Shown piece by piece: positions 15,881 to 31,301 of a DNA stretch of 31,301 bases. Both the position numbers and the translations under genes were made by a program. Source of the DNA: Paraglomus occultum (lineage: Eukaryota > Glomeromycota > Glomeromycetes > Paraglomerales > Paraglomeraceae); NCBI GenBank assembly GCA_910592205.1, contig CAJVPJ010000270.1, positions 1 through 31,301 on the forward strand. Direction: 5' to 3'. Position 1 is the stretch's first letter; every line of letters begins with the position of its first letter. Under the pieces are notes generated by a model that did no database searches, had not been told where the DNA came from, and saw only the letters and a list, made by a program, of their open reading frames with translations.

Positions 15881-17373
15881 CTAACGAGGATATCCGCCAA
15901 AGGATTGCTGTCCATATCCACCATATCCTTGTTGCGAATAAGCCAGTTCATCCTCAACAAGTAATTCCTTAACCTCCCATACGTTCTGTTTACTTCCGAC
16001 AGAGAATTCCAAATCTTCCTTTGTAATTGAATCCCAATATTTGTATACCATCATCACGGCCAACAGTGTGCAAATGGTTCCAAAGAATAAACCATCAATA
16101 TAATGCTTAACTGTGTCGCAAATTCTGACGGAGAATATGTATATTGTTACTTGTCCAATGATATAGAAAGTAATGCCAAAGAGGATGTCACCCAACGGCC
16201 AACGATCATCGAGAGTCTTGATGACGAGAACGATTTGTAATGCAACGTAGATGACGAGAGCTGCTCCATTGAAGACGTACATTACGATCCAGAGCGCCGT
16301 CGGACTTGTATTGTTGAATGGACCGATACTATGGAATGTTGCAATCGCTACAAAATACACTGCGCTAAAGAGTACAATTGATGAAATTCGGATTGACTAT
16401 ATAGTGAGAAAAAGCGAGAATACGTTAGAACATGGAAAAAAAATGTCAAGTCATCAAAATAGTTGGTGATCGTATATAATTCCCATTGTTTAATGCAGTT
16501 TTCCTTTCCCTTTTTTTTTTTTTTTCGATACTTTACCCAGAGCGATAATGCAGTACCATCTTCGGCAAACTGGAATCCGACAAATCCATTAAGTAAAAGT
16601 ATCCAAAACGTTACTGTGGTGAGACCAACGTGTGCCGCTACAAAGTACTGTTGGGGGAAACGAATTAATCAGTCGACGATAACAACTCGAGCAAAAGGCT
16701 TCATCTAATTAACCGGTTGACTGAGCGCAAGTGCCTATGATCCGAAATTATTATACTCACAGAGTAAGCATTTGATGCGGTTGGAATGATTCCCGACACC
16801 AACAAGAACTCCAGGAATGTAAGCAACATGTAAGAGTAAAAGAACATCACAATCTCCTTTCGACCTATTATTCATCAAACACAATCACAAGATTTAGCCG
16901 AATGCTCACGAAACATGCAAACGATGCTGCGAGTCGAGTTCATACTTACCGACAGCAGTATATTTAGATTTGATATGAATAATCATGATAGTCGTCATTA
17001 TGAGTGCAATCACGTGGATAATAAGAGTAGCTGTATAGAGTAGAGATGTCAACAGACACACATACAAATACACAGACACGCATGAGTAAAGAAGAACTTG
17101 AGAAATTATTGTATCGCTCTCGATCTCTGACATGATTTAGTGTGATAGAAGGGGAGCAAGTACTGTTTTCTTTCACTCGACGTTCTTTCATTTCGCTCTC
17201 ACAGTCGGAAGGGGGGTTTCCTCCTATTTACCTGGTTGAAAGATCAAAGTTCCACCGATTTCGACGTTTCTCGAGTAGCAAGTTGGTTGAATTCCCTGGC
17301 TTGTGCCTACCAGAGGACATACCGTGAGGGCAGCTGTCTCGCATATTGAGTTGAAGTCACCGAAATGTGCCAT
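15881..17373 (-). CDS. chs7: Chitin synthase export chaperone (Chs7 family), five exons
   Basis: Chs7 is an ER multi-pass membrane chaperone that helps chitin synthase (Chs3 type in yeast) fold and leave the ER. Exons on the minus strand: 17373-17232, 17030-16950, 16864-16761, 16647-16537, 16396-15881. All introns are GT-AG (201, 85, 113 and 140 nt) and the joined frame is open, giving 317 aa, close to the yeast length (about 316). The N-terminus starts [12 protein letters not shown] and has Cys 11, 19 and 32 before the [12 protein letters not shown] segment typical of the family. About seven hydrophobic segments follow, near residues 48-66, 81-100, 112-135, 150-168, 180-205, 215-236 and 246-265. 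The stretch [20 protein letters not shown] is a recognisable family motif. The tail (297-317) is rich in Gly, Tyr and Gln. The start is the first ATG giving the conserved N-terminus. Intron 1 holds a CA-rich stretch. The gene is divergent from the coiled-coil gene at 19,705. No damage is seen. The family call is firm; the specific synthase client is unknown. Confidence 0.95.
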
Positions 17374-25390: not shown

Positions 25391-27146
25391 TTGCGGGTAA
25401 ACCCATCAAAAGCACGAGTGAGAGCGAAAGCGATAACATGCAGTGAATTAAACGTTATGGATGATAAACTTTACATGATAGTCGAGTACGAGTCACTAAC
25501 AAATTTCGTTGAACCTATAAACACCTTTCATCACGATTTCTCTATAGAAACGCTTCAGATATCTCAGTTGACAAAGGGTTCCTATAGAGAACCAACAGTA
25601 CCCGGGCTTTCTGGATATTTCGCTTATGTATTTTTATATTTATATGAAATATGTACTTTATTCGGTAATAAAAGCACAGTAAAGACCTCAAAACTCTTAA
25701 CACTCGTGATTGATTGGAACGACGCGGGGCTTCAATGATACTCACACTCAAGATTGTCGCGGGGAAAACCAAAGCGGCTATTATTGCAAGCCTGATGGCG
25801 CACGGGGCAGGCGACTAATTGTGTTTGAACCTAATTTTCGTTTTTCGAAACAGTTCAGTACTTGGGTTACTAATATAGAAGAAACTTTACGAGATAATGT
25901 TATACATATTTTAGATACTTTGAGTGTCAGACGCGAATGTTTGTTTATAGGTTTTATATTTAATGCTATCGTTTGCTGGCGAAAAGAATGAAATAAAAAC
26001 GTATGTTTGTGTGTTGCGGAAATAATAATAAAGCTGGGGGTTTGCCTTTCTGGCAATCACGATTTGATGACACAAGTCACCACCACCTATCGCCACCGGG
26101 AAAGCGGTTGGGGGAATACCTACATATAACAAAACACCCTTACCCTATAACGAAGAAAAAGGGCGGAACGGACCCACATCATTATATTCAGGTCACTGTG
26201 TACTATTTTTCGTGTAGAAAAGCGATAGTTCCTCGCGATAATTAAGTGTAGAAAATCATATTATATTCGATTACATTACTAGTTACATAACCACTATACT
26301 GGATAATGCAATCTTAAATTCTAACCTAAATATTTTTTGAATCTTGCGTATTTTTCTTCGCCGTACTAATTTCTGTACGGGTCTATCACATACACAGGAA
26401 GTGATAATTTACTCAGGGACGCAAACCGGTGATAAGGGATATATCACTTTTTGGGGTCATTGCTGGAAGAATTTCTCATCAGTGTTTATGTTGCGGTTTG
26501 GACTGAAGAGTAACACTGGAAGAGAAAAACGTAGTTTATCGGTGGTGTATTAGTATAACGGATTTATACAAACAATAAATCGGAAAACTACGCAACGAAA
26601 GAGTTCGATGAACGAACGTATTCGAAGCACATTCTAAACGTCAAGAGAAAAGATGGTCAATAGACGGAATTTCGAATATTATAAAAATGAAATATCTATT
26701 ATCTTCGAGACCCCATACAATATACATACATTGAAATACGATCCACTTACCCAGATAGACAAGGCAACTACCCACTGCCGGTTACCGTTACCATCCAAGT
26801 CAACATTTCCGAAAAAAGAAAAGGGAGATCACGTTGTCATAAAAATAATACGGTGAATTAACAAACGCAGCAAGACAGAAAACAGATCGAAAGAAAGAAT
26901 CGTAAGACAAAGTGCTTGAAATCTTTTAGACGTTCGTTGTTCTTCCCAGTCATTGTTGTCATTGTATCAGCTTCGTGGAGATTAAACAAGAATGAAAGAG
27001 CAGATAATCCAAATTATACAGAGAATTTGATAACTAATGAAGATAGTGGCAGAAAAAGGCAGGGAAAGAGAATCAAAAGAGAGAAGTTGCTGAATAGCTG
27101 GCTAACGATGAATGCGGCACCCTGCGACAAAACAAACGAGTATTAA
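25391..27146 (+). other. Unassigned ORF-like fragments in changing frames
   Basis: Open plus-strand stretches with coding-like composition lie at 25391-25738 (includes DDKLYMIVEYESLTNFVEPI), 25710-25991 (includes RRLIVFEPNFRFSKQF), 26003-26245, 26344-26553 (includes TGDKGYITFWGHCWKNF), 26653-26856 and 26916-27146. A shifted frame at about 25738-25818 reads LTLKIVAGKTKAAIIASLMA. The pattern would fit a decayed gene or mobile element, but no family was recognised and chance ORFs are not excluded. No signal peptide or metal-binding motif is clear. Confidence 0.2.
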
Positions 27147-27423
27147 AATACAAATCGGAACATTTCGTACAATTGACGTATGCTTGAACACCGTTCCAAA
27201 CCCACCACAGCAACATAACCATACGTACGCATTCAGCAACCTCCTTGCCGCTCTGATAACATCGGTTAGTGCATAAAAACTAGTGTCATCTTGCGCGAAC
27301 AATGCACATGGCTAACTGTTCAACATAGCCCCAACGGCCAATTCTTCCTTTGCTCCACCTCCGCCATCCCGTTTTTCATCTGCACCCTTGTAAGTATTGG
27401 CTCCGTAACTACGCTAACATCAG

Positions 27424-28705
27424 TCACTGCACTACAAATGCTTGCGTGTTAGCTGCGTTCAAAGAACTACTGAAGTAACATACGACTTCTCCGTATTCTT
27501 GAAATATTTCAATCATCTAGAGTTGTAGAGGGAGTGCATTCAGCGAAAAGCTAGACGCGTAGTGGAATGTCGTCGACTTCTTTAAGGTGAGATCGGATAG
27601 AGTCGACACTCGTCGGAGGCAAGCTTTGATGTCGTGCGTTTTACGATAAGAAGACAAATGTGCGCGTCACCAGGGAAGGATAGAAGTATACAACTGTTCC
27701 AATCGGTCTGGAGATCGGCGTAAGTTTTTCGTATTCGTAAAGTTTATGTGGCGTTGAGGTCAGGATCGAAACTTTTATAGGCTATTTGGAGATTGATAAA
27801 TAGCATTACCTTTGACCTCGCGTTCTGCTATCGGTGAGAAGTAAACAAATTTAATACCCGCTAATTTGAGATCCTCAATAAATCCTAACATATACAACAA
27901 AAAAGAGAACTCAGCTCGTTGCCCTGCGTTCCTTAAATTGTAACTTCCTCCTCCATTACTTTGTTCCAAAAGACATTATAATTACCACTTTTGGTTCATG
28001 ACTTAATGTTGCCATACTTAAAAATATCTGTCCGTTTATCACTTCCTCATAGAACTTTTATTCATCGACATGCGTGACTTGATCGTCGAATACAGAATCA
28101 TGAAGATTAGCTTCCAGTTGACAGAAGATTTCTCCGTTTGATAAGTTGCGAGCTGGAGAGGTCGGTTGGTGTGGTAGAGAGGAAAGGAGTATAGAGATAC
28201 TGATTGAGACGTTACAGTCGGATGGCGCATATATGACATAATCTTCGGGTGAGGGTGGTAGCATGATAAACGCAATGTCAGAAGACAATGAGGGGGTCAC
28301 TTTCGGTATTTATTGGACGGTAGGCATAGGCTATGGAGGTCGTTTACAATGGCGAAATCGGATCCATCTAATAGACGTTGTAAATTACCCATTGTTCAGT
28401 ATATCTAACAACATTGCTTAATACATGCATGCTTGGAGTATGTAAAATACCATTTAATCTCGTTCCCATAAAAATCTTGTACTCACCGTTTTATAGGTTT
28501 TAATCCTAATAATCAGAGCAGGGTCCTTCCTCTTCATATATCAACGAAACCATAACTGGTAATCATCACGTACGCGTTCGAGTAGTGATGGACGATAAGG
28601 AGCAAAAGCGACAAATGTCTGAAGAGCATCGTCAGTGAATCCTATTTCCTTGCCTAATTGGCATAATTTGTGAAATAAATAAGGTAAACGCTTAGAATCG
28701 TACAT
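27424..28705 (-). pseudogene. Broken gene of unknown function next to the Fanzor remnant
   Basis: On the minus strand an ATG at 28705 opens MYDSKRLPYLFHKLCQLGKE and FVAFAPYRPSLLERVRDDY, then hits a TGA (28543-28541) with coding-like sequence resuming right after (YMKRKDPALIIRIKTYK). Further fragments follow in shifting frames: GNLQRLLDGSDFAIVNDL, SSDIAFIMLPPSPEDYVIYA, LSNGEIFCQLEANLHDSVFD, KFYEEVINGQIFLSMATLSH, AEFSFLLYMLGFIEDLKLAG, IKFVYFSPIAEREVKGNAIY, and SDLTLKKSTTFHYASSFSLN, ending near 27424. The amino acid make-up is that of a soluble globular protein of roughly 400 aa. No catalytic motif was recognised. It reads as one gene carrying several stops and frameshifts. I have a faint impression of a multi-copy Mucorales hypothetical family but cannot confirm it. 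It shares strand with the Fanzor remnant, about 235 nt downstream of it. Confidence 0.55.
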
Positions 28706-28939
28706 TGTCTGGTTGTTTTAGTTTTGGCATAGTAGAACTGGTTCCGAAACCGGTCCTCAGAGAACTTGTGCATCCTGCGGCCTTGACATGATTTTTGAGT
28801 ATTAGTATTTAGTTGGCTATTGTGGTCTCATTCGATCTAATTGCACAGACAGTATCGGAGGTTATCTCCTACAGAAAAACCAATCATCCACGATAAAATT
28901 ATTTTATAAATGTCATGGTTATAAATGAACATTGATCAT

Positions 28940-29790
28940 TCAAGCGGGGTAGGCCCCAGTTCCAAGTCACCCTGGCTCAGATGTTTCAGAAGGATGTTGG
29001 TGCTGCGTTATGGTCTCTGTCAATCTCAAAACCGCATTCATTGCACTTGTAAACCTAAATCATTCTTGACATATTCACAACGCCCGCGTCTTGGATGTGC
29101 CAATGCTCGTTACAGAAATTCAACAATCTTCCTGGATATTCCCTAATCTTATGCATCAAATGTTTTCGCAATTGGTGACGTGACGGTGTCAACATCATCC
29201 TCGCAGTCTTGCTTTGTCTCGAATATGGGTAACAAGATGACTTTGTAATCATCACACAGCTCTCGCAATCTTCTGATGGCAATGGTTTGGACATTGACCA
29301 GTAGTCGCAACATCTTACGTTTCAACATGTGTTGTTTGAAGAACTTTTACTGACAGATTTTTTGCTTTGGTATCTATCACACCTACGTTGGTCGCAAGTA
29401 AACGTGCAATAAATATGGTTTAACATTATGATGCAGTTGTGGAGTGATTGACAATTGTTAAATGATCTGGCGAAATGTAACGCGCATTGTTTTGCCACAA
29501 ATGAAAGAGCCATCACTAGTAAGCTATACAAGTTGCGATCAAGTGCAATGTGCGTTGTCTGCAAGAAAAGCGAGCACGATAGGGCAATACACGTAGTAAA
29601 CCCACTACGACCGATGGAAAGACTCAGAATGTGTAGCAGACATTTCAAATAACATAGGAACCCAACCTCCGGGGAAACTGGCGGAATAATTCGACTAATA
29701 TTTCCCATATTAAAATTACGGCGCGTACACATATGGATTCCGACTCGGCAGAAAATATTGTTAGAGTTGTTGGATCGACTTGTGCACAGA
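28940..29790 (-). pseudogene. Degraded Fanzor / eukaryotic TnpB-like (IS607-type) RNA-guided nuclease, C-terminal half
   Basis: Minus-strand fragments in several frames follow the order of the TnpB/Fanzor nuclease core. A possible RuvC-I motif (VDPTTLTIF, from 29779) comes first. Then CDRYQSKKS (about 29390) and the helical KFFKQHMLKRKMLRLL stretch. RuvC-II is VILLPIFETK with its Glu at 29218-29220. Next are RMMLTPSRHQLRKHLMHKIR and EYPGRLLNFCNEHW, then zinc-ribbon remnants (GRCEYVKNDL and CNECGF). RuvC-III is FEIDRDHNAA near 29013-29027, followed by NILLKHLSQG and a TGA at 28942. Active Fanzors cut DNA guided by an element-encoded RNA. Here there are several frameshifts, at least one in-frame stop, a small deletion in the zinc ribbon, and no recognisable N-terminal half. 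A spacing of about 270 nt between GNISRI and CDRYQSKKS is longer than expected and suggests an inserted or degenerated stretch. The family call for 28,940-29,400 is strong; the part upstream of 29,400 is weaker. The gene cannot make an intact protein. Confidence 0.75.
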
Positions 29791-29988: not shown

Positions 29989-30855
29989 TCATGCATTGTC
30001 GGGAATTTCTTGATATTCTTGTTGAGAAGCGAGTTGCTTGTAATAGCTCCACACAACCAAATTGAAATGCAACTAAAATTTTAATATATATAAAATAATT
30101 AGACAAGTTATTGTGAATAAGAGAAATGAAACATTTGATGTCTTGTTATACACAAATGTCAAGTAAAAGTATTAAAGATCCTACCTGAAGCAGCCACCAA
30201 AGAGTAGCAGTTATAGTGAACGCAACCACTGTACGGACTTCGTCTGAACAGTCATCCAATTTTGAGCAATCGTCAGAAACAGTCAAGGAAAGGATAACAG
30301 TTTCGAATACGATTGACGAAAGAAGCAAGACGATGTAGCTCCAGTAAAATACGGCAAAGACTTTGACGAGTTTGAAATTATTCTGAGTTGGAAGGAAAGA
30401 AGAGCGTGCAAAGAGAAGAGATTGGGTCAGCGCGTGAAAATAACTTTGACCATAGATGGCATAGTATGGAGTGCCGGCCTTATGCATTAATAGTATCCAA
30501 TACCTTCTGAACGCCATAAAACCCGGAAAAGCAGAGTAATGCAGCAACCAAATAGAAAATAGTCAAGAAAATGGTAAGCCCGCGTCCTTCATCGGCAATC
30601 GGTCTAGCAACGGCAGCCAGTAAGTTGAGCACCTGCAGTAAAAGCAGAAGGAGTGAGTGTACGCCGTAGCAGTCTATATCGTACGAGAGTTTCTATGGTT
30701 ATATGGTACCGTGCCCAGAATGGCCAATGTCTGAGTTGCTGGTCTTTGAGAGTTTTTATAGAGCTTTTGAGTTTAATATCAAGACTTGTTACAAGAACAG
30801 GACGTCAACTTATTTTTTACCTCAAGTCAACGCAAAAAAGACACTTTTCAACCAT
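29989..30855 (-). CDS. Small tetraspan membrane protein, five exons, function unknown
   Basis: Exons on the minus strand: 30855-30821, 30743-30710, 30632-30504, 30382-30185, 30072-29989. All introns are GT-AG (77, 77, 121 and 112 nt). The joined frame is open and yields 159 aa ending at a TGA. The order is a short cytosolic head (MVEKCLFCVDLR), TM1 about 14-33, TM2 about 43-64, a short KNN loop, TM3 about 75-100, a loop with Cys105 and Cys111 in an acidic setting (possible disulfide), TM4 about 117-140, and a short tail (QEYQEIPDNA). The four-helix layout and short charged tail resemble small fungal tetraspan proteins of the MARVEL-like kind, but I cannot name the family. A phase-2 junction after codon 11 followed by phase-0 junctions all agree, which supports the model. 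The two first exons are only 35 and 34 nt, so they are the least certain part. No damage is seen, in contrast to the broken genes beside it. Confidence 0.8.
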
Positions 30856-31150: not shown

Positions 31151-31227
31151 AACAACAACAACAACAACAATAGGGCATGTTGTAACAAAACCAGACAAGT
31201 GAACATTTTATAATAATAAGGCTGATT

Positions 31228-31301
<74 letters not shown>
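31150..31301. repeat. CAA tract and long TTG tract at the window edge
   Basis: A CAA repeat (about 31150-31170) is followed some 60 bp later by a TTG repeat (31229-31301) that continues to the last base. The two tracts are reverse complements and could form a stem. The tract touching the end suggests that the contig or window stops inside a microsatellite. Confidence 0.9.

Follow-up and report, generated by a model that had tools for sequence, protein, structure and literature searches.

The last part of a Fanzor2 gene, interrupted by eight frameshifts, lies on the minus strand of a contig of Paraglomus occultum, a member of the Paraglomerales within the Glomeromycota, and is almost certainly a dead fragment left by an IS607-type transposon. 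The window, by which is meant the whole stretch of DNA that was analysed (31,301 nucleotides), is the whole of contig C270 in an assembly of 32.3 Mb and 1408 contigs. The copy that it holds is an ordinary dead example of an already known kind of element.

The remnant was delimited with a custom, frameshift-tolerant protein-to-DNA aligner, by which both strands of the whole window were compared with four references: P0026 (Scutellospora calospora, 521 aa) and P0032 (Cetraspora pellucida, 577 aa), both predicted proteins, together with P0002 and P0011. One minus-strand locus scored 408, 398, 231 and 218 against P0026, P0032, P0002 and P0011, respectively, while the maximum reached anywhere else in the window, with any of the four and on either strand, was 80. 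The alignment, on the minus strand, begins at 29387 (P0026) or 29423 (P0032) and finishes in both cases at 28939; a stop codon can be read from the sequence at 28938-28936, directly after ...LGPTPLE, and PIFET, DRDHNAA and NILLKHLSQGDLELGPTPLE all fall within the aligned minus-strand region. Identical residues number 100 of 146 relative to P0026 (68%) and 98 of 154 relative to P0032 (64%), each alignment passing through eight frameshifts and no in-frame stop along the chosen path; identity of the remnant to other proteins is lower (P0003, 53%; P0014, 49%; the bacterial P0250, 43%; the Lipomyces P0194, 40%). Similarly, in a profile search of the whole genome, PF07282 (Cas12f1-like TNB) matched minus-strand positions 29174-29001 with 28.4 bits against a cut-off of 26.3, and the excised piece alone scored 26.4 bits against the same cut-off. 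The match is thus significant and best on the minus strand, which bears out the decayed, minus-strand Fanzor in several frames that a preliminary description had proposed; in place of the span given there (28940-29790), the supported extent is 28936-29423, positions 29424-29790 being without a supported alignment. The features of the remnant, including two motifs named in that description, are as follows.

28936-29423, minus: C-terminal remnant, almost certainly from a Fanzor2 of IS607 type, running from the end of the RuvC-I linker through RuvC-II, the zinc ribbon and RuvC-III to the tail and stop; 8 frameshifts
29001-29174, minus: TNB / OrfB zinc-ribbon match (PF07282, 28.4 bits, and residue map)
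29013-29021, minus: RuvC-III D-R-D, kept, mapping to P0026 494-496
29106-29108, minus: codon of the alternative catalytic Glu (Ealt), kept, mapping to P0026 E461
29218-29226, minus: I-F-E of the preliminary description, aligned to P0026 R-F-E; not the catalytic Glu
29771-29779, minus: V-D-P of the preliminary description, outside the supported alignments and read as chance

Catalytic residues and missing parts

Three catalytic positions are invariant in all 13 relatives of full or nearly full length: the RuvC-I Asp, which stands in a DPG motif in each of them, a Glu that precedes the first Cys of the zinc ribbon by exactly six residues, and the DRD. Residues around ILLPxF vary among the same 13. 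Passages in Yoon et al. (2023; PMC10711439) designate this pre-ribbon Glu as Ealt and treat DPG plus Ealt as the fingerprint of Fanzor. The window copy contains the RuvC with C4 zinc ribbon (PF07282) by which the TnpB/Fanzor superfamily is recognized, as well as the RuvC2 Glu six residues before the ribbon (Ealt) by which Fanzor is recognized. The DRD named in the preliminary description was recovered at 29021-29013, and its zinc-ribbon remnant was likewise confirmed, with three of the four Cys kept (29079-29077, 29045-29043 and 29036-29034) and the first falling at a frameshift.

The claim that all three RuvC positions could be traced did not hold. The Glu of the proposed IFE (codon 29220-29218) occupies a column in which E, Q, K, R, N or T occurs among the 13 relatives, and IFE was rejected as the source of the RuvC-II catalytic Glu on account of this variability and of the invariant Ealt elsewhere (29108-29106). 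This serves as a correction for the reading of such remnants, in which the Glu beside the zinc ribbon counts and the Glu of the ILLPxF motif does not. The proposed VDP, the sole D-P pair in the three minus-strand frames of 29990-29425, was rejected as RuvC-I: it lies outside the alignment and at the wrong distance, 350 nt upstream of the alignment start, whereas in P0032 the RuvC-I Asp precedes the residue at that start by 24 positions, and the search for RuvC-I itself (P0032 residues 326-395 against 29900-29381) scored 23, below the six best of 100 shuffles (36-43). We read VDP as a chance motif. With RuvC-I not found in this search and Ealt and DRD kept, the traceable catalytic positions are two of three. 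The nearest copies in the genome read DPD (L010) and DSD (L011) in place of DPG.

Searches of 31301-29388 for the remaining parts of the element were negative at the level of shuffled sequence. The TnpA of P0026 scored 35 (20 shuffles: mean 33.4, maximum 41), and the N-terminal half of the Fanzor part of P0032 scored 45 (20 shuffles: mean 37.2, maximum 47), in agreement with the earlier statement that the N-terminal half is missing. The N-terminal profile HTH_OrfB_IS605 is over its cut-off in P0003 and P0014 and below it in P0032.

Relatives and the Fanzor2/IS607 assignment

By DNA similarity, the nearest copies in the genome are L010 on contig C68 (81% over 126 columns) and L011 on contig C52 (88% over 51), similarity to the window being confined to these stretches and one 27-column piece. 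In a tree of 42 rows, none of them a named Fanzor1 protein and with the window row filling 34% of columns, the window copy forms a clade with L010, L011, L040, P0026 and P0032 (support 100/98), within which the four P. occultum copies group with modest support (87/90). A second, more distant group of Fanzor copies from the same genome (L012, L014, L015, L021) appears in this tree. A protein search with P0032 returned 454 matches at E <= 0.001; among the best 120 of these 454, P0032 itself aside, only P0026 (67%) exceeds 51% identity. Relatives occur among predicted proteins of Scutellospora, Cetraspora, Gigaspora, Dentiscutata, Diversispora and Rhizophagus clarus. When the family profile was compared with solved structures, the best match was the TnpB-like mimivirus L79 protein (PDB 9b0l, E 1.7e-43), which we take to be a distant viral Fanzor2-like protein.

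The connection to IS607 is made through these relatives. The gene model of P0026 includes a Resolvase domain, and that of P0032 a weaker Resolvase match (21.1 bits, cut-off 23.3) together with MerR (21.9 bits, cut-off 21.6); a TnpA-like remnant (score 76) lies near L011. The TnpA-Fanzor fusion in the P0026 and P0032 models may be real or may be a modelling error. The IS607-like character proposed earlier therefore stands at the level of the family, TnpA having gone undetected in the window itself. By eye, Fanzor2 seems to start before tnpA has ended, the two overlapping in different frames, in L025, P0003 and P0047; also by eye, a TnpA-like stretch of L025 continues directly into Fanzor2 in one frame. 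The window remnant has its C-terminal tail in common with P0026 and P0032, which differ from it in being full-length, TnpA-joined and undecayed, all as predicted in gene models. Compared with IS607-type Fanzor2 as outlined in parts of two papers (Bao and Jurka 2013, PMC3627910; Yoon et al. 2023, PMC10711439), the window shares Ealt, the zinc ribbon and DRD, its relatives have the IS607 TnpA and its intact relatives DPG; unlike those elements, the window copy is a frameshifted fragment in which RuvC-I, the N-terminal half and TnpA were not found. Against the Fanzor2 reading it must be noted that the RuvC1 DPG and TnpA, which with Ealt define Fanzor2, went undetected in the window copy.

Of the alternatives, a decayed Fanzor1 that had been taken up by a DDE transposon or a Helitron is the one that survives best, and it is nonetheless very improbable. 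It could draw on the second Fanzor group in the genome, one copy of which (L020) adjoins a frame that presumably encodes a Tc1/mariner transposase, on published work portraying Fanzor1, in the portions available, as widespread in related fungi, and on the sharing of Ealt and zinc ribbon between Fanzor1 and Fanzor2 (passages in PMC10711439). It is opposed by the IS607 TnpA present within the same gene model in the closest relatives of the window copy, by the separation of the window clade from the second group at 100/98, and by HTH_OrfB_IS605 in the wider-family relatives P0003 and P0014. Slightly less probable again is that a working, intron-bearing gene, or a zinc-ribbon domain with a host function, has been mistaken for a wreck; the surviving catalytic Glu and DRD and a tail well preserved up to the stop codon would fit such a gene, whereas eight frameshifts in about 150 codons, the loss of one ribbon Cys at a frameshift, the undetectable N-terminal half and the single unspliced frames of P0002, P0003, P0006 and P0007 (metagenome contigs) speak against it. 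Chance resemblance can be dismissed, for although the short motifs VDP and IFE are weak on their own, and VDP is apparently chance, the gap between 408 and 80 refutes it, with independent support from the PF07282 match.

Fanzor loci elsewhere in the genome

A census of the dead Fanzor2 fragment's relatives combined matches to PF07282 (24), TnpA (20), P0032 (68) and P0003 (90), merged within 2.5 kb; the protein queries were used because PF01385 and PF00239 were near-empty (one genome match under the cut-off and one match, respectively). The merged matches define at least 55 loci. Fanzor-bearing queries hit at least 52 of these; among the 52, C52:26551-26772 is TnpA only, leaving at least about 51 Fanzor loci. 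TnpA matches occur at a minimum of 16 loci and are joined to a Fanzor match at a minimum of 12. Forty-three loci besides the window were fetched; one TnpA locus and eight Fanzor loci stayed outside this set. Of the 43, 40 carry one or more frameshifts or stops, although frameshift counts of the more distant copies are rough because the references come from other fungi; L051 scores no more than background (56), and L032, at 81, is near that level. The other three (L016, L017, L019) are unbroken but amount to merely 53-54 codons at contig ends. The intact relatives that the preliminary description had hoped for in this genome were thus not seen in the 43 fetched loci, and copies at assembly gaps may exist.

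The three unbroken pieces belong to a second group, with the tail ...GIFLRALLDGA, and L017 and L019 share 97% identity across 192 bp. Contigs C109 (L017, position 1), C1356 (L019, position 1) and C1149 (L016, end) break inside Fanzor copies, as though recent copies had interrupted the assembly at these points. At L020 and L013, decayed Fanzors are adjoined by transposase frames of Tc1/mariner appearance, which we take to be Tc1/mariner transposases. Conserved ends were not obtained for the window copy, its nearest relatives, L010 and L011, being without a C-terminal end. Two copies of another family, L024 and L027, can be aligned across about 2.1 kb, and their common sequence extends roughly 130 nt beyond the Fanzor stop.

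A further copy, L025 (C327:1-4500), contains a Fanzor2 with six to nine frameshifts at 880-2045. It is 96% identical in residues to the metagenome protein P0002 (340/355) and 91-92% identical to P0009 and P0020 of Diversispora epigaea (234/257 and 266/289); for comparison, P0048, a chaperone of P. occultum, shows 61-75% identity to the proteins from other genera with which it was compared. Either horizontal transfer or contamination may account for L025.

History and meaning of the element

The surroundings of the remnant include two features with recognizable relatives.

26221-28784, minus: decayed, 5'-truncated P-type-ATPase-like gene copy, whose longer counterpart lies on contig C557 (L053)
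15881-16396, minus: exon of a chitin-synthase-export chaperone, 100% identical to a P. occultum protein (next named hit: P. brasilianum, 91%)

Window and C557 DNA are 72% identical over 2814 alignment columns up to 28666 and 73% over 75 columns up to 28732, and a weak protein match of the ATPase-like copy reaches about 28784 (E 8.6e-4); P-type-ATPase Pfam matches of the C557 copy itself are under cut-off (26.8 bits against 27.3, others weaker). Since this similarity ends between 28732 and 28784, the Fanzor stop lies some 150-200 nt from the truncated end. Similarity to C557 DNA beyond 28732 scored 21.5, equal to the 95th percentile of shuffles (21.5), and, with similarity fading near 28732-28784, no empty site was obtained from the C557 paralogue. 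On the other side of the remnant, where the preliminary description had placed a tetraspan gene, no Pfam family matched the two ORF pieces at 30146-30692 above its cut-off, so that the tetraspan label is unsupported. A 58-column repeat at 31173-31229 also occurs at L012:337-393 (83% identity), and a long TTG/CAA repeat runs from 31226 to the contig end at 31301.

By analogy with its relatives and with published work on the family, the intact element would have comprised a serine recombinase, TnpA, conferring mobility, and the RNA-guided nuclease Fanzor2, which would have taken its guide RNA from the right end of the element and cut matching DNA. Of Fanzor2, the window retains just the closing part, with about eight frameshifts, and RuvC-I, the N-terminal half and TnpA are undetectable within the power of the searches; as a frameshifted fragment lacking these parts, it could presumably give rise to neither nuclease nor transposase. 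The likeliest history is that the element inserted, in the same orientation, beside or within the P-type-ATPase-like gene copy, and that a later deletion took the 5' ends of the two together. A single insertion and a single subsequent deletion would account for the 5' truncation of Fanzor2 and ATPase-like copy alike; this order of events has roughly an even chance of being correct, and the truncation history is not proven.

Taken alone, the locus matters little, being a dead copy, mainly a fossil, of a known kind of RNA-guided nuclease. As part of the genome, it belongs to an extensive collection of decayed Fanzor2/IS607 elements in P. occultum. No paper linking Fanzor or IS607 elements with arbuscular mycorrhizal fungi was found in a literature coverage that was partial, so that absence from print is unproven. 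One paper, in the part available, describes P. occultum as an early-branching mycorrhizal fungus that is repeat-poor (PMC9453076). Tentatively, and with the balance tilted against it, IS607-Fanzor2 elements may have passed through the arbuscular mycorrhizal fungi, in part by horizontal transfer, staying intact in some lineages and going extinct in P. occultum, where a graveyard of about 51 loci would persist within a genome that is among the smallest of the group. If true, the loss of these RNA-guided elements would form one part of the shrinkage of the P. occultum genome that can be read.
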